Below are positions 28,544 through 42,158 of a stretch of 62,922 nucleotides of DNA, one piece after another. Below the pieces are notes generated by a model. The model saw only the letters and a list, made by a program, of their open reading frames with translations, searched no databases and had not been told where the DNA came from. The DNA is from Synechococcales cyanobacterium GL140_1_metabat_312 (GTDB lineage Bacteria > Cyanobacteriota > Cyanobacteriia > Leptolyngbyales > Leptolyngbyaceae): positions 1-62,922 of the forward strand of contig JANXWB010000036.1 of NCBI GenBank assembly GCA_025351345.1. The letters run 5' to 3'. How positions within the stretch are numbered: position 1 is the stretch's first letter; each line of letters starts with the position of its first letter. Made by a program: the position numbers and the translations under genes.

Positions 28544-29764
28544 TTGCCACGTCAATATTTTTTCACCTCCGAATCGGTGACTGAAGGGCATCCTGATAAG
28601 GTTTGCGACCAAATCTCTGACACCATTTTGGATGCGTTGTTAGCTCAAGATCCGACTAGCCGAGTTGCGGCAGAAGTCGTGGTTAATACGGGACTTGTCC
28701 TGATTACGGGCGAAATCACCACAAAAGCAGATGTAAATTTCATCAAGTTAGTACGAGCTAAGCTGGCTGAAATTGGTTACACCATTGCAGACAATGGTTT
28801 TGCATCTGACAGTTGTGCCGTGCTAGTCGCTTTAGATGAGCAGTCTCCTGACATTGCTCAGGGGGTAGATAGTGCGTCTGAAACCCGTGTCCAACTGAGT
28901 TCCGAAGAACTCGACAAGACCGGAGCGGGCGACCAAGGCATTATGTTTGGGTTTGCCTGCAATGAGACTCCTGAACTCATGCCCTTGCCCATCAGCCTTG
29001 CTAACCGGATTGCTCGGAGGTTGGCGGAAGTCCGGAAGTCTGGCGAAGTGAATTATCTTCGTCCTGACGGTAAAACTCAGGTGACGGTGAAGTACGAAGG
29101 CGATCGGCCCGTTGCGATCGATACTATTTTGATTTCCACCCAGCACAACCCTGGTGTGAGTCAAGAGCAAATCAAAGCGGACTTGATGAAAGCGGTTGTG
29201 ATTCCTTGTTTTGCAGACTTGGATCTCAAACCCACCGAAGCGACTAAATTCCTTGTAAATCCCACGGGTATTTTTGTGGTCGGCGGTCCTCAAGGCGACG
29301 CGGGTTTGACGGGTCGTAAGATTATCATTGATACCTACGGCGGATATTCTCGTCATGGCGGCGGTGCATTCTCGGGTAAAGATCCAACAAAGGTCGATCG
29401 GAGTGCGGCTTATGCGGCGCGGCATGTGGCTAAAAACATTGTGGCGGCGGGTTTGGCTGACAAGTGCGAAGTTCAGTTGAGCTATGCGATCGGGGTTGCG
29501 CGTCCCGTGAGTCTTTTAGTTGAGACGTTTGGTACGGGCAAAATTGATGAAGACAAGCTGACCGACTTAGTGGAAAAACACTTCGAGTTACGTCCTCTTG
29601 GAATCATTCAAACCTTCAATCTGTGTAATCTTCCGAAGGATCGCGGTGGTCGCTTCTTCCAAGATGTGGCGGCCTATGGTCACTTTGGTCGGAACGATTT
29701 GGACCTTCCTTGGGAGAAGACAGATAAGGCGGAGTTGTTGAAAAAAGAAGCGGCAGCTTTGTAG
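28544..29764 (+). CDS. metK: S-adenosylmethionine synthase
   Basis: 406 residues; makes SAM from methionine and ATP. Signature motifs: [53 protein letters not shown] and [19 protein letters not shown]. The start is TTG at 28544, supported by AGAGG at 28531-28535 and by the family N-terminus beginning exactly here; no upstream ATG fits. Standard length, no insertion. Followed by a clear stem-loop terminator. Confidence 0.96.
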
Positions 29765-29824
29765 AACAATCCCCCAAAATCTCTCTTGGTAATGGGGACT
29801 AAGAGATTAATATAGCCCTGTAAG

Positions 29825-29866
29825 AAATCGGGAGGCATCCAAGTTGGGTAGCCTCTCGATTTTTAT
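29825..29866 (+). terminator. Rho-independent-type terminator downstream of metK
   Basis: ATCGGGAGGC (29827-29836) pairs with GCCTCTCGAT (29851-29860) with one G-U pair, flanked by AAA on the left and TTTTTATAG on the right. A diverged copy lies at 31601-31650 before the second J-WD40 gene, showing that the element was carried along in the tandem duplication. Confidence 0.65.
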
Positions 29867-29944
29867 AGTATTTCGTGAGATTTTGTGTCTTCCGGGTCAT
29901 GTACGGGAAAACTTAAAACAGATTGTAGTGGGAGCAAAGTCGGG

Positions 29945-31552
29945 ATGGAGACTGTTAACGATCGGGATATTGAGAAATTTTATAAAACGCTAGAATTGCC
30001 ATTGAATTCTTCCCAAGCAGAAGTAAAGGCAGCCTACCGATCGCTTGCTCGTAAACATCATCCCGATCGTTTCACCGGAGATCCCGACAAACTTAAGGCA
30101 TCCGAGGACCACCTTAAAATAATTAATACTGCTTACGCATTTCTAAAAACCTACGATCCGTCTACTCAGAAGGGCAAAAACACTACATCAAAATTCAATG
30201 TTGAGGTTCAGACCGCTAGAAATCCTGCCGATCGCACTCCTGCCGCTTTTGTTAGAGAAGCTCAGCGTTTTCAGGCAATGGGAAATCTTCAAGAAGCCTT
30301 GATGGCGCTGGATACCGCGATCGCCCTTGAAGACGATTACTATCCTGCCTACGACCTGCGTGGTGAAGTTCGCTTTGCTTTGGGGAATGCCTACGGGGCT
30401 GGAATGGATTTGAAGCGGGCAAAACATTTCCGGTGGGTATACAAAAGTGAGGGTCGATCGATCGAGTCTCCGACAAAATCCCAATCATCATCAACCTCAG
30501 AAACGTCGGCAAGAGATGCGGCTAAAGCTTCGGTAGATTCAGTCTTTAAAACTCAAACCCGATCGTCATCGTCGTCCACATCATCCAAGCAGCCCCAAAG
30601 TTCTCCCTCCTATAAACAGCCCACCCCAGAAAAATCTTCCGCTGCGTCTAAATCTCCAACACCGACTCCAACTCCAACTCCAAAAACTGTTCATCCGCAA
30701 CCCGAACTCCGTCAGGTTTTTCCAGGTCACGTAGATAGCATTAGTCAAATTCTGTTTGTTAACCGATCGATCATCAGCGCTAGTCATGATGGAACGGTAC
30801 GAATTTGGTGTGCGGAAACGGGAATTCAGCAGGGTTGTTTGACTGTGGGTGCTGCGGTCACAGCGATCGCAACCAGTCCCAACTCTAATCTGTTTATCAC
30901 AGGCGATCGGAGTGGTAAAGTCAAAATGTGGAATTTGGTTGATTACAAACTGATTCGATCAATTCCTTTACATACAGGAAAAGTTACTGGAATTCATTTC
31001 ACCCTGAATGGCAAAGGCTTTGTGACAACCGGAGAAGATGGGATTCTAAAAATCTTTCAACTGAATCCTGCCTCTCTGCGTCACACGCTTCAAATTTCAA
31101 ACGTCCCTATTTTTTGTTCAGCCTTGATGGGCGATCGTATCTTCACCGCCAGCGCCGACTCTCAACTCAGAATGATCGTCCAAGGCAACATCAATCATAC
31201 CGAACCGCTCTCCTCACCCCTGTCTAAAACCATGGCGGTAAATACCGATCGAAAATGGATCGCAATTGGGGACGATCGGGGTTCTGTCCATTGTTTTGAT
31301 GCCCAAGGCAATCTGCATAAAAGTTTTGTAGGATGTCCAGGTCGAATTCAATCCGTCAACTTTCTGTCTTCTGGCAAGAAATTACTCGTTGTCGGAGAAA
31401 CTCCCCTAATCAAAATTTGGGATACGACCACTTGGAATATATACACTGAATGGAAAGTCTTAGGTACAGGACAATTAACCACTGCACAGGTTCAAGGAAA
31501 TCAAATCGCGATCGCCCAAGGCAACAGCCTCCAACTCTGGCAACTCCCCTAA
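29945..31552 (+). CDS. J-domain / TPR-like / WD40 propeller protein, copy 1
   Basis: 535 residues from ATG 29945. Residues 6-70 form a J domain with the Hsp70-stimulating HPD motif (KHHPDR, 36-41) and RSLARK. Residues about 95-160 form two TPR-like helix pairs (FQAMGNLQEALMALDTAIAL, YDLRGEVRFALGNAYGAGMD). A Ser/Thr/Pro-rich linker (PTPTPTPTPK) leads to a WD40 propeller from about residue 255: GHVDSISQILFVN...SASHDGTVRIW, ITGDRSGKVKMWNL, TTGEDGILKIFQL, ASADSQLRMI, IGDDRGSVHCF, VGETPLIKIWD and a closing LQLWQLP. The J domain predicts recruitment of a DnaK; the propeller probably selects a partner. No catalytic domain. An in-frame upstream start at 29885 is less likely because the paralogue also begins here. 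Confidence 0.88.
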   Translation: METVNDRDIEKFYKTLELPLNSSQAEVKAAYRSLARKHHPDRFTGDPDKLKASEDHLKIINTAYAFLKTYDPSTQKGKNTTSKFNVEVQTARNPADRTPAAFVREAQRFQAMGNLQEALMALDTAIALEDDYYPAYDLRGEVRFALGNAYGAGMDLKRAKHFRWVYKSEGRSIESPTKSQSSSTSETSARDAAKASVDSVFKTQTRSSSSSTSSKQPQSSPSYKQPTPEKSSAASKSPTPTPTPTPKTVHPQPELRQVFPGHVDSISQILFVNRSIISASHDGTVRIWCAETGIQQGCLTVGAAVTAIATSPNSNLFITGDRSGKVKMWNLVDYKLIRSIPLHTGKVTGIHFTLNGKGFVTTGEDGILKIFQLNPASLRHTLQISNVPIFCSALMGDRIFTASADSQLRMIVQGNINHTEPLSSPLSKTMAVNTDRKWIAIGDDRGSVHCFDAQGNLHKSFVGCPGRIQSVNFLSSGKKLLVVGETPLIKIWDTTTWNIYTEWKVLGTGQLTTAQVQGNQIAIAQGNSLQLWQLP

Positions 31553-31725
31553 AAAATAAACCTCAGAGATCTTGTAAAATGAGAAATTAATTTACTCCTA
31601 TAAAGAATTGGGGGCATTCGAGTTGTGTGGCCTCTCGATTTTTATAATGTTCCTATGATTTTTGAGTGTTGGGGGTCACATACGGGGGAAACTTAAAAAT
31701 AAATGGTAATGGGAGCAAAACTAGG

Positions 31726-33267
31726 ATGAAGGACGTTACCGATCGGGATATTGAAAATTTTTATAAAACACTAGAATTGCCCTTAAATTCTTCCCAATCA
31801 GAAGTAAAAGCAGCTTACCGATCGCTTGCTCGTAAATATCATCCCGATCGGTGTTCTCAAGATCCAGTTAATTTAAAAGCCTCTGAAGAGCAATTTAAAA
31901 TTATTAATACAGCTTACGAATTTCTCAAGACCCATAAACCCACAACACCCAAAGCCGCACCCAAAGAATATCGGAATTCCGTTCACATACAATTCCCTAG
32001 TAATCCAACTAACTTTCCTACCAAAGTTCATCGTAAGGGCACCCAAGCAGATCAATCTCCCTCGGGGTATTTCTATGAAGCCCGCCGTCTGAAAGCTTTG
32101 GGGGATCTCGAAGAAGCTATCATGGCATTAGATAACGCGATCGCATTGAAAGACGACTATTATCTCGCTTACGAATTACGTAGTGAAATTTATCTCGCCT
32201 TGGGCAATGACTTCGGATATAGACTGGATTTGCGTCGGGGAAAACATTTTCGGTGGAAGCAAACGGGTAAAGATCGTCCGCCTGTCACCTCCAAATCTTC
32301 AAAAGAAAAATACAGCAGTCCATCTCCTCAAAAACCTCCCGCAGTAAAAGTCACCGTAGAGACAAAACCTCCAGAACCTAGACCGCCGCAGTCTAAACCA
32401 CTTCAGAAACAAGCCAAAGATCTACACACCTTTGTAGGTCATGTAGACACCATCAGCCAAATGCTCTTTGTGAACGGATCGCTCATTAGTGCTAGTCACG
32501 ATGGTAGTGTCAGGATTTGGAATGTAGAGACGGGAGCGTTACAGGGCTATTTCATGGTGGGAGCAGAAGTTACAGCGATCGCCGCTAGCGCCAAGTCCAA
32601 CCTCTTGATCACAGGCGATCGTAGAGGACAGATCAAAATGTGGAATCTTCAGCAACAAAAACTAATCCGATCGTTACCACTTCATACCAATGCCGTAACC
32701 GGAATCCACATTAGCCCGAATGGCAATGGCTTCACCACCACGGGCGAAGATGGCGTAGTCAAAATGTTTCAGATCCAACCCGCATCACTTCTATACAGCC
32801 TTCAATTTCCCAATTTCCCAATTTTTAGCTCAGGCATTCTAGACGATCGCATCTTCACTACCAGCGCAGACTCCAAGCTCAGACTGATTGCCAAGGGGAA
32901 AATCAGAAGAGAAGAACTCCTCTCATCTCCACTATGCAAGTCAATGGCCGTAAACCCGGCTCGAAAATGGATTGCGATCGGAGACGATCGAGGGTCAGTG
33001 GATTGTTTTGATATCAATGGAAATCTGCTCAAGAATTTTGCGGCATTTTCTCAAGGTGCCATTCAGTCCATGAGTTTTATCACTAGTAACGATCAATTAG
33101 TGGTCGCAGGCGAAAAAGGTGCAATTAAAGTCTGGGATATAAAAAACTGGGATTTAGTAACAGAATGGAATAACAGTGAGCATCCTGTAACCACGATCGC
33201 CGTACATAATGATGGAAAAATCGCGATCGCCGACCAACAGACAATCCGCCTCTGGCAACTTCCCTAA
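31726..33267 (+). CDS. J-domain / TPR-like / WD40 propeller protein, copy 2
   Basis: 513 residues from ATG 31726. Same architecture as its upstream neighbour: J domain with KYHPDR, TPR-like helices (LKALGDLEEAIMALDNAIAL), a shorter Pro-rich linker (PPEPRPPQSKPLQK) and a WD40 propeller from about residue 235 (GHVDTISQMLFVN, SASHDGSVRIWNVETG, ITGDRRGQIKMWNL, TTGEDGVVKMFQI, IGDDRGSVDCF, VAGEKGAIKVWDI, IRLWQLP). The J domain and propeller are very similar to copy 1, while the linker has diverged in length and sequence, as expected if it is only a tether. Both HPD motifs are intact, so both copies should be functional co-chaperones. Confidence 0.88.
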   Translation: MKDVTDRDIENFYKTLELPLNSSQSEVKAAYRSLARKYHPDRCSQDPVNLKASEEQFKIINTAYEFLKTHKPTTPKAAPKEYRNSVHIQFPSNPTNFPTKVHRKGTQADQSPSGYFYEARRLKALGDLEEAIMALDNAIALKDDYYLAYELRSEIYLALGNDFGYRLDLRRGKHFRWKQTGKDRPPVTSKSSKEKYSSPSPQKPPAVKVTVETKPPEPRPPQSKPLQKQAKDLHTFVGHVDTISQMLFVNGSLISASHDGSVRIWNVETGALQGYFMVGAEVTAIAASAKSNLLITGDRRGQIKMWNLQQQKLIRSLPLHTNAVTGIHISPNGNGFTTTGEDGVVKMFQIQPASLLYSLQFPNFPIFSSGILDDRIFTTSADSKLRLIAKGKIRREELLSSPLCKSMAVNPARKWIAIGDDRGSVDCFDINGNLLKNFAAFSQGAIQSMSFITSNDQLVVAGEKGAIKVWDIKNWDLVTEWNNSEHPVTTIAVHNDGKIAIADQQTIRLWQLP

Positions 33268-33278
33268 AAAATAAACCC

Positions 33279-33300
33279 CAGAGATCTTCTAAAATCTCTG
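33279..33300. terminator. Stem-loop after the second J-WD40 gene
   Basis: CAGAGAT (33279-33285) pairs with ATCTCTG (33294-33300), a perfect 7-bp stem 12 bp after the stop. The matching segment behind copy 1 keeps the left arm (CAGAGATCTTGTAAAAT) but has lost the right arm, so only the distal unit ends in a hairpin. Confidence 0.5.
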
Positions 33301-33356
33301 AGGCTTAAAACCACTTCTTATTCCTGCTTCACAAGAGGAACTTAGGGCGATCGAAT

Positions 33357-33959
33357 CTAGACTACGGGAGGATTCAATCCAGAATGCGGACGGCGAATCA
33401 CCTGATCAATCAACCCATAGACCGTTGCTTCCTCAGCAGACATAAAGAAATCACGCTCCGTGTCCTCTTGGATTTTCTCCAACGGCTGACTCGTATGCTC
33501 CGCCAATAGACCATTCAAACGGCTCTTGATATACAAAATTTCCTTCGCCTGAATCGCAATATCCGTCGCCTGACCACTCGCCCCGCCCAAGGGTTGGTGA
33601 ATCATAATTCGGGAATGGGGCAAACTCATGCGCTTACCCTTCGTCCCCGCGCTCAACAAAAACGCCCCCATTGATGCCGCAAAGCCCACACAAATCGTGG
33701 AAACATCAGGGCGAAGCTGCTTAATCGTGTCGTAAATTCCCATGCCTGCCGACACTGAACCGCCGGGAGAATTGATATATAGATAAATATCCTTCTCAGG
33801 ATCTTCAGACTCCAGAAAAAGTAACTGCGCCACAATTAGGTTTGCGACTTCCGAATCAACCGCAGACCCGAGGAAAATAATGCGTTCCCGCAACAGGCGC
33901 GAATAGATGTCAAAGGCGCGTTCTCCGCGACCCGATTGTTCAATTACGGTAGGAATCAT
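33357..33959 (-). CDS. clpP: ATP-dependent Clp protease proteolytic subunit
   Basis: 200 residues from ATG 33959. Serine peptidase that forms the double-heptamer chamber fed by ClpC or ClpX. Catalytic triad: Ser96 in GFAASMGAF, His121 in MIHQPLGG and Asp170 in DTERDFFMS. The N-terminal [20 protein letters not shown] is the standard ClpP start, so the open frame further upstream (to 34121) is taken as leader. Cyanobacteria carry several clpP paralogues plus clpR; the intact triad shows this is ClpP, not ClpR. It diverges from gyrA. Confidence 0.95.
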
Positions 33960-34351
33960 TGGCTGTGCCTGTGCGTTCTGGATGACTGAAAGTACTGGTT
34001 TCGATCGTACTGCTTTCCATTGTAGCGAGTGCCTGCAATTCCGCAAAAGTCGGAAAACCGATAGAACTTTTTGGACGGTAATTGGAGCGGCAAGAGTTTG
34101 AATTTCAAGCCGATGGATCACAATATTCAGAATCTCACTACTTTAAAAGCTGAAACCCTTACAGGGACTAATATTGAGCCACTCTAAAAAGCTCCGTTTT
34201 TATGGTAAAATGAAGTGGTTCAAACAAGCAAACAGCGTCTATAATTAATCGCCTACTAAGTTAGGCCAAATCCGTTCCTAGAAAGGCTTAAAATCAGGCA
34301 TTTCGACCGATCGAACCAATTTACGACCCTGCTTCTGGAGTATCTCTTTAT
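33960..34351. promoter_or_regulatory. Divergent clpP-gyrA control region
   Basis: About 390 bp with no supported gene. A candidate gyrA promoter has -10 TATAAT at 34240-34245 with a weak -35-like GTTCAA at 34218-34223 (16-bp spacer). GGAG at 34337-34340 is the likely gyrA ribosome binding site. An open frame upstream of clpP in this stretch lacks family similarity. Confidence 0.4.
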
Positions 34352-37036
34352 ATGACCTTTTCTCAAGACACGCCGAACGTGGAACGCATTGTTCCGACTG
34401 ACTTGCGCAACGAGATGCAGCGGTCATACTTGGAATACGCCATGAGCGTCATTGTCGGTCGTGCCCTTCCCGATGCTCGCGATGGACTCAAACCCGTTCA
34501 CCGTCGTATTCTCTACGCGATGCATGAATTGGGCTTGGCCTACGATCGTCCCTTTAAAAAATGCGCCCGCGTCATCGGGGAAGTGCTGGGTAAATATCAC
34601 CCCCACGGCGACCAATCGATTTACGATGCCCTCGTGCGGATGGCCCAAGACTTTTCCATGCGTGCCCCACTGATTGACGGCCACGGGAACTTTGGGTCGG
34701 TCGATAATGACCCGCCTGCTGCCATGCGATACACCGAGTCCCGCTTGACCTCATTGACAGCTCATGCGTTATTGCAGGACATTGAATCCGAAACCGTAGA
34801 CTTCGTAGACAACTTTGACGGATCTCAACAAGAACCCACCGTTCTACCGTCCCGAATTCCCCAGCTTTTGGTCAATGGTTCCTCTGGAATTGCTGTGGGT
34901 ATGGCGACCAATATTCCACCTCATAACCTCGGCGAAATTATCGATGGATTGATGGCGCTGATTCATAATCCTGAGATTACCGACATTGAACTCATGCAGT
35001 TCATTCCCGGTCCTGATTTCCCCACAGGTGGTGTGATTAATGGAAAATCAGGAATTCGTGAAGCCTATACCACCGGGCGCGGTTCCGTTGTCATGCGTGG
35101 TGTTACTGCCATTGAAACTCTAGAGCGACGCGGCGCACCCGATCGTGAAGCCATCATTGTCACTGAGTTGCCCTACCAAACCAACAAAGCCGCTTTAATT
35201 GAAAAGATTGCTGAATTGGTGAATGACAAAAAGCTCGAAGGGATTTCTGATATTCGCGACGAAAGCGATCGGGACGGAATGCGAATTGTAATTGAACTCA
35301 AGCGCGACGCATATCCCCGCGTTGTAGTGAACAATTTATATAAGCAAACGCCTATTCAATCTAGCTTCGGCGCGAACATGTTGGCTTTGGTAGACAATGA
35401 GCCACAAACCCTGACGCTGCGTGCCTTTCTCGTTACCTTCCTGGATTTTCGGATTGAAACCATTGCGCGGCGAACTCGCTATCAATTGCGTAAAGCCGAA
35501 GAACGTGATCATTTGCTGCAAGGGTTGTTGACGGCCCTCGCGAATTTGGATTCTATTATTGCCTTAATTCGTCGATCGGCAGATTCAGCGATCGCCAAGG
35601 TTGAACTCATCGAAACCTATGCATTATCTGAGTTTCAATCTGATGCAATCTTGCAAATGCAATTGCGTCGTCTCACGGCATTGGAAGCCGGAAAGATTGA
35701 ACGAGAGCATGATGATTTAATGGTTCAGATTACTGATTTGCAACATATTTTGGCAAATCGCGATCGGATTTTGACAATCATTACGGAAGAAGTTGCTGAA
35801 ATCAAGAAAAATCACTCAACGCCTCGTCGTACGCGAATTGAGCAAAGTGAAAATGAATTGATGGACGAGGATTTGATTGCTAATGAAAAATCCGTCATTT
35901 TAATTACCGAGCAAGGCTACATTAAACGAATGCCCGTCGATTCTTTTGATGCTCAAAGCCGCAATACGCGTGGGAAAGCGGGTGCGAAAATGAAGGTCGA
36001 TGATGCGATCGACCATTTCATTACCTGCTGCGATCATGATGTAGTGATGCTATTCAGCGATCGGGGCGTAGTTTATGCCCTTAAAGCCTACCAAATCCCC
36101 ATTTGCTCACGGATTGCCCGAGGTACACCGCTCGTCCAGTTGCTCCAAGTTACAAACAAAGAGAAAATTACCTCAGTCGTTCCCGTGAGTGAATTCCGAG
36201 ATGATGTTTATCTTGTGATGTTGACCAAGAAAGGATTTATTAAAAAATCTGCCCTCACAGCCTTCGGAAACATTCGTGCTAATGGGTTGATTGCTATATC
36301 TCTAGAAGAAGGGGATCAATTGCGCTGGGTGAGTCTTGCGACCGCCGCAGACAGCATCATTGTTGGGTCAAGCCAAGGCCGATCGATTCACTTCCGGGTC
36401 AACAACGAGCAATTGCGCCCCTTGGGCCGTGCAACTCGTGGGGTCCGATCGATGAATCTGAAAAAAGATGATAGTTTGGTCGGAATGGCAATTGTCTCTA
36501 GTCAAATTTTGGCAGAGTATGCCGCATTGCTAGAAGCCGGAAGCGATGATGAAACCACTGAAGATCTTCCAGAGGACAAAACCAGAGGCCCATGGATTCT
36601 GATTGTCACCACAGGCGGACTCGGAAAACGCGTTCCCGTTAGCCAATTCCGTTTGCAAAACCGGGGCGGTATGGGTATTATCGCAACGAAATTCCGTAAA
36701 AAAGGCGATACGCTTGCGGCGCTGACGATGGTGAATGAAGACGAAGAACTAATGATCGTCACCCATCGCGGTATTATCATTCGTCAACTTGTCAATGCCA
36801 TCTCGAAACAATCTAGACCTGCGACGGGCGTGCGCTTGCAGCGTTTGGATGATTCGGATGCGATTAGTGCAGTGGCAGTTGTGCCATTAACGGGCGAAAG
36901 TGCTGAACTTGATGAAGACGGCGATGAGCTAGATCCGGACGCGAGTGATGCTGTCGTTGATATCGAGGTTATGGAAGAGACGGTCGCCGCCTCTGATATG
37001 GATGATGTGGATGATATGGCTGAAGACGAAGCTTAA
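34352..37036 (+). CDS. gyrA: DNA gyrase subunit A
   Basis: 894 residues. The breakage-reunion domain carries the catalytic Tyr127 in AAMRYTESR, with [20 protein letters not shown] and [20 protein letters not shown] upstream. The C-terminal DNA-wrapping domain shows the repeated blades of GyrA (for example [51 protein letters not shown]). The last 45 residues are strongly acidic ([20 protein letters not shown] followed by [13 protein letters not shown]). Conserved intein insertion sites around the active-site Tyr are uninterrupted. Its own promoter lies in the clpP-gyrA gap. Confidence 0.96.
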
Positions 37037-37098: not shown

Positions 37099-37950
37099 TT
37101 ATTTAAGATCTGCTATTTCCTCTAATGTTAGATCTGTCATTTCGGAAATACTCCGATCGTCCATTACACCAATCAGCCGTCGTGCAATCTCAATTTTTGT
37201 TTGTTCGATCCCTTGTTCGATCCCTTGTTCGATCCCTTGCTTTAGCGCCTTAACGATCGCACCTTGCTGGTCTTGAATAAAAAATGATTGATGTTCTAAT
37301 TCATCCAACTCTTCACGAGTCAATGTTGCTCGATTTGCAATCTCAAATGCTTGCTGAATTTCCGTAACATTTCCCATAATCTGAGGAACTACACTCAAAT
37401 CTGGTGCGTGTTGCATGAAATAAATCCACTTATCCGTCAGACTTTTTAGTTCATCAAGTGGAACCTGGAATTTCGGCAATTCTAGAAAAACAAGCTGTAA
37501 ATCACCGCTCAAATAATCAATCAAACATTCCTTTTCTTTCAAAACAAATCGAGAAATTGGGCGGTCTATTTCTGGAAACATCTCAAAATTGGTGATCGTC
37601 AATGCAATTACAGGACTCAGTTCGGTGTATTGTTCACCTTTGTCGAGCTGAATTGAGTAAGCTTTAGCGGCATTGTAGAGAATTCGTTTTTCAAAGCCCT
37701 CAACATTCAAGACCTGCATTTCAATAATAACGGTTTCGCCGCTTTGAAGTATGGCTCGAACATCCAGATAAGTATCTTTTACCCCACGGATTCGAGGCGA
37801 TAAATAGGGATCAAGAATTGTTAGATCTTTAACAATCGACTGACCTTCATAAAGAATTCCGTTCAGAAAACTGATCAAAATTCCATGGCTTTGTCCAGAG
37901 CCAAAGATCTTCTTAAATGCAAAATCTGTTTTTGGATTGATAAAGATCAT
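37099..37950 (-). CDS. Rpn family recombination-promoting nuclease / putative transposase (PDDEXK_2)
   Basis: 283 residues opening with INPKTDFAFKKIFGSGQS and FLNGILY, the classic start of Rpn/PDDEXK_2 proteins. The nuclease core follows: DTYLDVRAILQSGETVIIEM with Asp...ExQ in place of ExK, then YNAAKAYSIQLDKGEQYTEL. Family members are Mg-dependent DNases that raise RecA-independent recombination; many are linked to mobile DNA or phage defence. Near residue 240 lie three copies of GIEQ encoded by a perfect 12-bp tandem repeat. No inverted repeats or target-site duplication were seen, so the gene is not marked as an insertion sequence. Confidence 0.85.
   Translation of the reverse strand: MIFINPKTDFAFKKIFGSGQSHGILISFLNGILYEGQSIVKDLTILDPYLSPRIRGVKDTYLDVRAILQSGETVIIEMQVLNVEGFEKRILYNAAKAYSIQLDKGEQYTELSPVIALTITNFEMFPEIDRPISRFVLKEKECLIDYLSGDLQLVFLELPKFQVPLDELKSLTDKWIYFMQHAPDLSVVPQIMGNVTEIQQAFEIANRATLTREELDELEHQSFFIQDQQGAIVKALKQGIEQGIEQGIEQTKIEIARRLIGVMDDRSISEMTDLTLEEIADLK
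37201..37236. repeat. Three perfect 12-bp tandem repeats in the Rpn-family gene
   Basis: TTGTTCGATCCC occurs three times head to tail. On the coding (minus) strand it specifies Gly-Ile-Glu-Gln units, keeping frame. Such a repeat can change copy number by slippage without a frameshift. Confidence 0.85.
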
Positions 37951-39440: not shown

Positions 39441-42158
39441 TCACTTCTCCCCCGGTGCCCAAGGCCCAACAACACTCTCCCCATTCTTCTCTTTCTCTGC
39501 GACTTCCAAATTCAGTGCGAGTAGTTTCTCTAGGAGGTCGTCGGTTTTGCTGAAGCCGTAAGCTTTGAGTACGAGGTCATCTAGGGTTTTGTTGAGTTTG
39601 GCGAGTTGGCTGGCGCTTTCGTGGAAGTATTCGTTGTAGAGTTTGGTGATTCCCCATTGTTTTTTCTCCATTTGTTGGCTGCGGTATTCGTGAAGGTCGA
39701 TCGCGGTTTGGCGGATAGCTTCGATTTGTTTGGCAGTTGGGGTTTGCGGGAAGGAGAAGGTTTCAAAACAGGTGTTGTGGGTGTAAGCAATGTCGGCTTT
39801 TAGTGTTGATTTTTGAGCGTGCATCCAGGTGCGATGAACATTAGATGTCAGTATTCCAAATACATAAAAGTCATCAGAAACAACAGCCTTCGTCTTATTT
39901 CCTGGCAACCAATCTAAAGAAGAAGGAACGAAGATTGCCCATTTTGAAACTTCTGGCACTGCAAAGTATTGGGAAAGAGGTTCGATCGCCTTTCTCAGCG
40001 CTGGACGTTTCTCACCATATTTCCACCAATTCACTTTTGTGACTTCTCGACGATTGTTATCACGTTCGGGTTTGACGTAAGTTTTAACATGAGCAAATGG
40101 CAATTTATAATCACTGGCATCTTCAAGAGGCATATCGTTGAAATCAATAATCCATCGATCGGGCTTTCCGTTAACTTCTTGAGCTAGATTTGCGCCCATG
40201 GAAAATAGTTTGAGAACTTCTTGATTTTTACGATCGGCTTTGATCCAATCATTCACTTGTGCCTCAGTAATAATAAAACCCTTTCCGACTGGAATCACGC
40301 CTTGAAAGCAATAATTTAGATTAGCTTTTAGTCGATCGGCTTGACTGACATCAGTTTCGCCTTGCAATGATGAATTGATTTTTGAAACTTCCTTGTTGTC
40401 GAGATAGAAAATCAGAGGCGTTTGTTTGCTCCAATTGGTTATGCTAACGTGAACTTTTGCTTCTCCTGACCAAACCTGTGTTGAAACCGCATCGTGAATA
40501 ATTCCCCCATTGGCTGTCACATAGTCGAGCGCAGCTTTTCGACTTTTGCCTTGACTAATTGAGTTTGTTGCAACTAGTCCAGCACGACCAGCCTCACCCA
40601 AATTATCTTGTGCTAGCCGAAACCAATATGAACAAAAATCAACCGAGTCATTAACATCAGGAAAATGCTTGAAAACTCTATCGATATAGCCATCGCCCAA
40701 ATTCATTCGCATATGCTTCCCACCCAAAAACGGCGGATTCCCAATAATCGCATCTGCCTTAGGCCACTCCGTAAATAACGCATCAGCACAAACAATATTT
40801 TGATCTAATGAATCCAACGGCAACGCAGGCTGATCTAAAATTCCAAAATTATCGATCGCAATCTTCCGCGCAATCATTAGCGTCACCCGCGCCAACTCCA
40901 CCGCAAACGGATTCAAATCAATCCCAAAGAACTGCAACGGCGTAACAAACCCGATCGCCATTTGTTCACGACTTCCCCGCCGCCGCTCCGAAATCTTATC
41001 GAGTAGCAACCGCTCAATGCGTTTCAGTTCCAGATAAGCCAAATACAAAAAATTTCCACTCCCACAAGCCGGATCAAGCACCCGATAATTCTGTAATTCA
41101 AGCTGAAGCTGATTTAGTTCCCCGATCGTAAGCGCCGCCTCAATCCGCTCCTCCCAAAATCGACTAATCGTCGGACGCACAATCTTCATAATGTCCACCT
41201 CCGACGTATAGTGCATTCCATGCTTATGGCGCTCAACAGCACTCGCCGTCCCCTCAAAAATATTGCCAAAAATAGCAGGCCGCACCCGACTCCAATCCTC
41301 CAACGCCGCCACTTCCAAAATCTTGAGTTCATTTTCGGTTAGCTCGATCGGATGCACCCGTTCAAACAATCCCCCATTGAAATACTCCACATCCTTATAG
41401 CGACCCGCAGGCGTAATCCCCGGCGTATTCATCGCCAAAAACAATCCCCCCAACACATCATAGGAACTCTTCTTCTTCTCACCCAAACAATCCTGCACAC
41501 AACTCACAAACAAATCTTTCGGCAACAATCCGCGATCCTCCGCAAACATCGCCAACACGCATTGCAATACAAACCGCTGCGCCACCAAATCATCAAATCC
41601 CTCCCGTTTTCCACGCACCTTCAGCATCTGACACAGTTCCCCCATGCGCTTCCCAGCCTTTTCCGTAATCTCCTGTTGATTGTTCCGAAACACAGGTTTA
41701 CGAACGCTGGACTCCATAAACGCAAACGCACTGGACGCACGGCTAACAAACTGATCTAACCGCACCATATCCACAGGCGTATCCACTTGGATATTAAAAT
41801 CGTAAATCCAAAACTCATCAAAATTACACAGCACCACATACTGCGATCGAGGAATCTGAAACATCCAATATTGCAACGCCTGCGCATAATGCTTACTCAG
41901 ATCCTCGCCCTTCTTCTTCATCTCAATAATCACCCCCGGCAGATTCCCCGGCACCCACACCAAATCCGCAAACCCCATCTTCCCCGTCTTGCTGCCCTTC
42001 TTAATGCGTTTTTCCATCACCGCACCCGCAGCGATCGCATCCGCATACCCAAACGCCTGAAAAAACCGATTCAAAAACGTCTGCGAATCACTCTTCTCAT
42101 CCTTCAACCCCTGACAAGACGACACAAACAATTCAAGAGATTCAGAAGTCGCAGGCAT
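39441..42158 (-). CDS. MmeI-like (type IIL) restriction-modification enzyme
   Basis: 905 residues, close to MmeI (about 920). The N-terminal nuclease domain has the PD-(D/E)XK pattern Asp65 (GFADLVW)...Glu79-x-Lys81 (GVIIEMKKKG), preceded by QTFLNRFFQAFG and followed by LSKHYAQALQYW. A helical linker joins an N6-adenine methyltransferase: motif I LDPACGSGNFLYLAYLEL near 360, QFFGIDLNPFAVELARVTLM, and motif IV GNPPFLGG near 475. The C-terminal third (from about 600) should hold the target recognition domain. A single polypeptide that both methylates one strand and cleaves at a distance; the recognised sequence cannot be read. No separate methylase or specificity gene lies nearby, consistent with this type. 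Both catalytic centres look intact. Confidence 0.85.
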   Translation of the reverse strand: MPATSESLELFVSSCQGLKDEKSDSQTFLNRFFQAFGYADAIAAGAVMEKRIKKGSKTGKMGFADLVWVPGNLPGVIIEMKKKGEDLSKHYAQALQYWMFQIPRSQYVVLCNFDEFWIYDFNIQVDTPVDMVRLDQFVSRASSAFAFMESSVRKPVFRNNQQEITEKAGKRMGELCQMLKVRGKREGFDDLVAQRFVLQCVLAMFAEDRGLLPKDLFVSCVQDCLGEKKKSSYDVLGGLFLAMNTPGITPAGRYKDVEYFNGGLFERVHPIELTENELKILEVAALEDWSRVRPAIFGNIFEGTASAVERHKHGMHYTSEVDIMKIVRPTISRFWEERIEAALTIGELNQLQLELQNYRVLDPACGSGNFLYLAYLELKRIERLLLDKISERRRGSREQMAIGFVTPLQFFGIDLNPFAVELARVTLMIARKIAIDNFGILDQPALPLDSLDQNIVCADALFTEWPKADAIIGNPPFLGGKHMRMNLGDGYIDRVFKHFPDVNDSVDFCSYWFRLAQDNLGEAGRAGLVATNSISQGKSRKAALDYVTANGGIIHDAVSTQVWSGEAKVHVSITNWSKQTPLIFYLDNKEVSKINSSLQGETDVSQADRLKANLNYCFQGVIPVGKGFIITEAQVNDWIKADRKNQEVLKLFSMGANLAQEVNGKPDRWIIDFNDMPLEDASDYKLPFAHVKTYVKPERDNNRREVTKVNWWKYGEKRPALRKAIEPLSQYFAVPEVSKWAIFVPSSLDWLPGNKTKAVVSDDFYVFGILTSNVHRTWMHAQKSTLKADIAYTHNTCFETFSFPQTPTAKQIEAIRQTAIDLHEYRSQQMEKKQWGITKLYNEYFHESASQLAKLNKTLDDLVLKAYGFSKTDDLLEKLLALNLEVAEKEKNGESVVGPWAPGEK

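Follow-up and report, generated by a model that had tools for sequence, protein, structure and literature searches.

The stretch of DNA analysed here (the window; 62,922 nucleotides, contig JANXWB010000036.1) is contig 30 of the 3.85 Mb genome of Synechococcales cyanobacterium GL140_1_metabat_312, a member of the Leptolyngbyaceae. Two adjacent genes on its forward strand encode proteins in which a J domain is followed by a pair of tetratricopeptide repeats (TPR), a linker and a predicted seven-bladed WD40 propeller. In J-domain proteins of class C (type III), a J domain with the HPD motif is combined with other domains that supply the target; the two genes are most likely tandem paralogues in a cyanobacterial family of this class. 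Over the full length, identity between the copies is 52%, and both reading frames are intact, with no stop across 535 (copy 1) and 513 (copy 2) codons. Both starts were placed at the internal ATG where homology begins, the listed open reading frames opening at upstream GTG codons. The two genes and their parts are as follows.

29945-31552, forward strand: copy 1, J-TPR-linker-WD40 protein of 535 amino acids, stop codon included in the coordinates
29960-30151, forward strand: copy 1 J domain, residues about 6-69, HPD intact (Pfam DnaJ at residues 12-69; helices 6-15, 24-37 and 47-69)
30239-30448, forward strand: copy 1 TPR pair, residues about 99-168, four model helices and a TPR profile match
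30467-30691, forward strand: copy 1 linker, rich in Ser and Pro, residues 175-249, predicted to be disordered (predicted local distance difference test, pLDDT, below 50)
30704-31543, forward strand: copy 1 predicted seven-bladed WD40 propeller, residues 254-533, 28 strands, Pfam WD40
31726-33267, forward strand: copy 2, J-TPR-linker-WD40 protein of 513 amino acids, stop codon included in the coordinates
31741-31932, forward strand: copy 2 J domain, residues 6-69, HPD intact (Pfam and AlphaFold2 model)
32059-32265, forward strand: copy 2 TPR pair, residues 112-180, four model helices
32269-32406, forward strand: copy 2 linker, residues 182-227, predicted to be disordered (pLDDT below 50)
32416-33258, forward strand: copy 2 predicted seven-bladed WD40 propeller, residues 231-511, 28 strands, with matching solved folds

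The assignment to class C is based on what the J-domain models cover. The Pfam DnaJ model matched copy 1 with an E-value of 8.6e-12 (45.4 bits) and copy 2 with 4.4e-16 (59.2 bits), both above the cut-off of 27.8, and the HPD motif was invariant in all 16 rows of the J-TPR alignment, which include both copies. A three-helix J domain was also present in the AlphaFold2 models of both proteins. DnaJ family models covered the J part only; for example, TIGR02349, which describes DnaJ proper (type I), was aligned over profile positions 2-71 and 1-55 of 354, and its scores of 41.9 and 51.0 bits fell under the NCBIfam cut-off of 377.2. No DnaJ_C or zinc-finger model was found among the best 25 Pfam matches of each protein (of 41 and 59 families). 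Thus, the G/F region, the zinc finger and the DnaJ C-terminal domain were all undetected, and the DnaJ models stop at the J part.

The remaining domains were identified by profiles and predicted structures. Against solved structures, the J-TPR profile matched consensus TPR proteins with a best whole-sequence E-value of 6.9e-64, a sum over many repeats of which the best single stretch shown reached 1.2e-6, and J domains were matched as well. The Pfam WD40 model matched copy 1 and copy 2 with E-values of 4.9e-21 and 2.3e-24, respectively. Full AlphaFold2 models, built from shallow alignments of five rows, were of moderate confidence (mean pLDDT 77.5 and 75.9; predicted template modelling score 0.56 and 0.54). 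A fold search with the copy 2 model returned WDR5, LIS1, WDR61 and other propellers among its best matches; nine of the top ten chains had a template modelling score of 0.79-0.89 by target length, and the remaining one, which is much longer, had 0.43; by query length the scores were 0.49-0.53. A preliminary description, made from the letters of the window, had given both proteins a J domain with HPD, TPR-like helices and a WD40 propeller, with no DnaJ substrate-binding region; all of these elements were recovered here, and the helices can now be called TPR by profile, four of them being predicted in each copy.

Different parts of the proteins appear to have evolved under different constraints. 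The two copies share 60.7% identity in the J-TPR part and 57.8% in the WD40 part, with large gaps in the linker, in line with the earlier remark that the J and propeller parts are alike and the linkers differ. When copy 1 was compared with the pieces of its orthologues in two genomes of the same genus (G001 and G002), the ratio of non-synonymous to synonymous substitution rates (dN/dS) was 0.26-0.27 for the J domain, 0.12 for the TPR pair (0.04 in one piece of 22 codons) and 0.14-0.15 for the WD40 part, as opposed to 0.485 and 0.413 for the linker. Between the copies, it was 0.18-0.22 for the domains and 0.38 for the linker, and the synonymous rate outside the J region was 1.4-1.6, which is near saturation. 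The folded domains of both copies therefore appear, from these rates, to be held by selection, and the linker seems to be loosely constrained whether orthologues or paralogues are compared.

The occurrence of this architecture was then surveyed by using the J-TPR profile. Among 42 genomes of the order (E-value 1e-25; the own genome and three genus-mates, G001, G002 and G003, included), 16 were matched and 15 carried the fused form, 13 of them complete, one with a stop (G001) and one cut by a contig end (G002); the match in G010 lay too near a contig end to be classified. In a second survey of 386 genomes drawn evenly from the phylum, nine candidates were scored per genome, so that the counts are lower bounds; 50 genomes matched the profile, and a J-TPR-WD40 protein was present in at least 20, namely 19 with a full gene (including the own genome) and G150 with an internal stop. 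The profile replaced a whole-protein query, which had been swamped by ordinary WD40 proteins at three candidates scored per genome. The family was found in distant cyanobacterial families, and with these counts, broken and cut copies included, the earlier statement that J-WD40 fusions are rare is not supported. Among the best 80 of 528 relatives, a simple WD40 pattern placed both parts in one frame only in L030, L029 being the G001 gene cut by its stop. Of 138 matching plasmid records, none covered 80% of the query at a single location.

Other C-terminal ends are also found on the J-TPR part. Of the 30 other phylum matches, about half were read and had no propeller, some being short with a basic tail and some having stretches that look membrane-like by eye; the rest have frames of 156 to 446 amino acids. 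In two J-TPR proteins (L182:5833-6570 and L183:5384-6460), a hydrophobic, membrane-like stretch takes the place of the propeller. A short J-TPR gene encoding about 200 amino acids adjoins the fused gene in six genomes (G192, G398, G094, G404, G150 and G322) according to profile matches, both genes having been read in G192 and G398; in these two, a J-TPR-WD40 gene lies beside a J-TPR-basic-tail gene (L184:8788-11010 and L185:9061-11239) with shared neighbours. Moreover, G412 has a second, very divergent J-TPR-WD40 protein of 498 amino acids (L207:2999-4495) besides its ordinary one.

A comparable difference was observed at a second locus within the genus. The present genome has a third J-TPR gene (C17:7722-8273, L189), which encodes 184 amino acids without a propeller, and the same short form is found in G001 and G002 (C17, C401 and C412), intact in all three genomes. 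On the other hand, the syntenic gene in G003 (C338; L204:9077-10606) encodes a J-TPR-WD40 protein of 509 amino acids. No propeller remnant was detected by tblastn next to the short gene in any of these genomes, and in L206 the tblastn match continues past the TPR for about 60 residues of the linker region. As the fused form is present in relatives belonging to the same family, the simplest reading of these sequences would be that the propeller was lost in the common ancestor of this genome, G001 and G002. In the tree of the joined J, TPR and WD40 parts, the window pair, the G003 gene at the locus of that pair and a G408 gene formed one clade (support 100/99), whose stem branch is long (1.34 changes per column).

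The origin of the tandem pair itself can be followed in the sequences that flank the two genes, among which the following features and neighbouring genes were noted.

28544-29764: metK, named from reading of its translation, 5' neighbour of the pair
29823-29864, forward strand: terminator-like hairpin after metK and 5' of copy 1 (core 29830-29858; -25.6 kcal/mol, z -8.0)
31553-31580, forward strand: flank after copy 1, matching the flank after copy 2 at 26 of 28 bases and holding the first half of the hairpin only
31602-31643, forward strand: decayed copy of the metK hairpin between the copies (core 31610-31637; -12.6 kcal/mol, z -1.9), aligned with the spacer between metK and copy 1
33276-33303, forward strand: intact hairpin after copy 2 and before the convergent clpP (-11.2 kcal/mol, z -4.4)
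33357-34121: clpP, convergent to the pair, named from reading of its translation
34352-37036: gyrA, next after clpP, named from reading of its translation

The spacer 5' of copy 2 aligns over most of its length with the spacer between metK and copy 1. Since a decayed metK hairpin and half of the 3' hairpin lie between the copies, the copied flanks at both ends are the footprint of a tandem duplication whose unit was spacer plus gene; together with the 52% identity of the proteins, they bear out the duplication that the preliminary description had proposed. A single gene was found at this locus in the three genus-mates: complete in G003, with an internal stop in G001, and running off the contig end in G002, beyond which a second copy is possible. 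The tandem was accordingly seen only in this genome among the four of the genus, with the G002 locus being cut by its contig end. The G001 gene resembles copy 1: its two pieces share 89% and 88% identity with copy 1, compared with 62% and 55% for copy 2. The bases of the intact hairpin that follows copy 2 also stand 3' of it, so that its 3' flank is of the copy 2 type. A deletion of copy 2 by recombination in G001 would fit this combination.

The trees disagree on whether the duplication predates the divergence from G003 or followed it. In the J-TPR tree, whose bootstrap had yet to converge, the two copies were grouped with each other (92/50). Copy 1 was instead grouped with the G003 gene, and copy 2 placed outside, in the WD40 tree (98/93) and in the tree of the joined parts (96/75); these two topologies would imply that the gene was duplicated before the G003 split and that G003 and G001 subsequently lost copy 2. 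At the DNA level, the copies were 78.5% identical in the 5' block, which includes the non-coding spacer (29765-30151 versus 31553-31932), and 67.8% in the propeller block. Codons for residues shared by the copies were identical at 36 of 54 positions in the J domain and at 98 of 196 in the TPR and WD40 parts (Fisher p 0.032). Partial gene conversion or conserved regulation would each explain the higher likeness of the 5' block.

Taken together, these features make it most likely that both proteins act as class C co-chaperones, the propeller holding a partner to which DnaK would be brought. Three full-length Hsp70 genes (C47, C95 and C66) and two partial matches are present in this genome, and the J domain would trigger ATP hydrolysis by one of the full-length proteins. 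The propeller, perhaps with the TPR pair, would bind one folded partner or complex, and DnaK would thereby be loaded onto that partner or its neighbour, with the linker acting as a flexible tether. The architecture was kept in both copies after the duplication, and most likely their partners would be identical or closely related.

An alternative, which we regard as unlikely, is that the pair has been subfunctionalised, each copy addressing a different partner by means of its diverged propeller and linker. The copies are indeed only about half identical, the synonymous divergence outside the J region implies long retention of both, and their linkers differ in length. However, free divergence of the linker is also seen when copy 1 is set against its orthologues (dN/dS 0.41-0.49). 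Being the least constrained part even there, the linker offers no argument for two targets, and the suggestion in the preliminary description that the differing linkers point to two related targets was rejected. The propeller loops give a similar picture, with the top-face loops (59% identical between copies) being about as alike as the strands (63%), and the bottom loops reaching 42%; loop classes were assigned by ourselves from the general WD40 topology. In addition, G001 has a single copy 1-like gene, the second copy being missing in this close relative.

Several observations weigh against the recruitment of DnaK to a propeller-held partner. The difference between top and bottom loops is not significant (p 0.085), and residues of the WD40 structural motif sit in the top-face loops, which is a caveat on the conservation of this face. 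In TPR co-chaperones of the HOP and DNAJC7 type, a carboxylate clamp grips the C-terminal tail of Hsp70 or Hsp90. Such a clamp was considered for the copies and rejected: at three equivalent columns, selected by ourselves after what we take to be the Lys/Asn/Asn clamp positions of HOP, these residues occurred in 0 of 16 rows, and HOP-style holding of the Hsp70 tail is thus not expected. No such long frame was found in 27 of the 42 genomes of the order, and the internal stops in the single G001 copy and in the fused gene of G150 indicate that the gene is either dispensable or misassembled there. Neighbourhoods of 16 loci were also compared and no pathway followed from them; they were not conserved beyond the genus, except for G192/G398 and a few single pairwise matches, such as a nearby gene read as obgE in G017 and G014, and others including L025/L027, L169/L188 and L022/L186.

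Some of these points, namely the internal stops and the patchy distribution (15 of the 42 genomes), as well as the long stem branch and the missing propeller at the second locus in three genomes, would also be expected if the family were fast-diverging, marginally useful and being lost, with the tandem an accident of little function. This appears very unlikely, as dN/dS of the domains is well below 1, the frames and HPD are intact in both copies, and the family is present in distant cyanobacterial families. Also very unlikely is a propeller that is itself the client, in which case the J domain and TPR would help a WD40 scaffold to fold or assemble and the output would lie in the propeller: the halves are separable, as J-TPR persists without a propeller (C17/C401/C412 versus C338), and WD40 proteins are common in cyanobacteria (PMC5587647, in the part of the source available), but an intact short J-TPR gene in three genomes suggests a propeller-independent function, which a recruiting module fits better.

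Under the preferred reading of DnaK recruitment, a broader scheme may be proposed, albeit tentatively and with considerable doubt. The J-TPR part would be a chassis on which C-terminal address modules can be exchanged (propeller, membrane helices, basic tail or none) and which places DnaK on particular structures, and the propeller form would be dedicated to recruiting DnaK to one conserved cyanobacterial complex. Through duplication at one locus and propeller loss at another, the division of labour between J proteins with and without an address would have been rebuilt within the genus. J-domain proteins decide where Hsp70 acts, and a WD40 propeller, a common docking platform in eukaryotes, on a bacterial J domain would offer a tractable case of Hsp70 being steered by a folded docking module. 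The genus provides a natural comparison set for the role of the propeller: at one locus, close relatives have either a single propeller gene or a tandem pair, and at another, the syntenic gene has its propeller in some and lacks it in others.

Two other genes of the window differ among relatives. An MmeI-type restriction-methylation protein of 905 amino acids is encoded at 39441-42158 on the reverse strand, whereas at the corresponding place in G001 (L023:14968-14981) the M16 and S13 peptidase genes are 12 bases apart with no MmeI-type gene, which is a presence/absence difference between close relatives. A protein of the PDDEXK_2 nuclease-transposase family (37099-37950, reverse strand) has a short EQGI repeat near its C-terminus, and its relative in G001 is longer by 12 residues.

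The preliminary description had also considered the fusion uncharacterised, and the literature search, in which subscription papers were sparsely covered, gave no functional study of a J-TPR-WD40 protein. The architecture is real, recurring and apparently unstudied within the well-known class C. WD40 proteins, with kinase, caspase and other associations, are enriched in cyanobacteria, and their propellers are of the same class as those described here. In cyanobacteria, genes that neighbour WD40 genes have been reported to encode products with which the DnaJ domain is often associated (PMC5587647, from the part available). No J-TPR-WD40 protein is described in the accessible text of that paper, and the term TPR is absent from its main text (PMC5587647). 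The heat-responsive proteins of Spirulina include WD-40 proteins, none of which is described as a J fusion in the accessible portion of the report (PMC2743650). In Nostoc punctiforme, which has 14 DnaJ homologues, a DnaK1/DnaJ3 system is connected with type IV pili and polysaccharide (PMC9239167, as far as the accessible text goes). Neither WD40 nor TPR occurs in the main text of that paper (0 occurrences), and the system pairs a dedicated DnaJ with one of several DnaKs (PMC9239167, from the same accessible text).

Among known proteins, the copies can be compared with class C members in general and with one TPR-containing member in particular. DNAJC3 (p58IPK) has a role in the endoplasmic reticulum and, to our knowledge, no propeller. 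Like the copies, it combines TPR with a J domain, and its structure (PDB 2y4t) was matched by the J-TPR profile with an E-value of 8.8e-28; its J stretch lies at residues 382-443 of a 450-residue chain, at the opposite end to the J domain of the copies. As in other class C J-domain proteins, HPD is present in the copies and DnaJ models match the J part only, but unlike the characterised class C members found in the literature, the copies add a TPR pair and a seven-bladed WD40 propeller.

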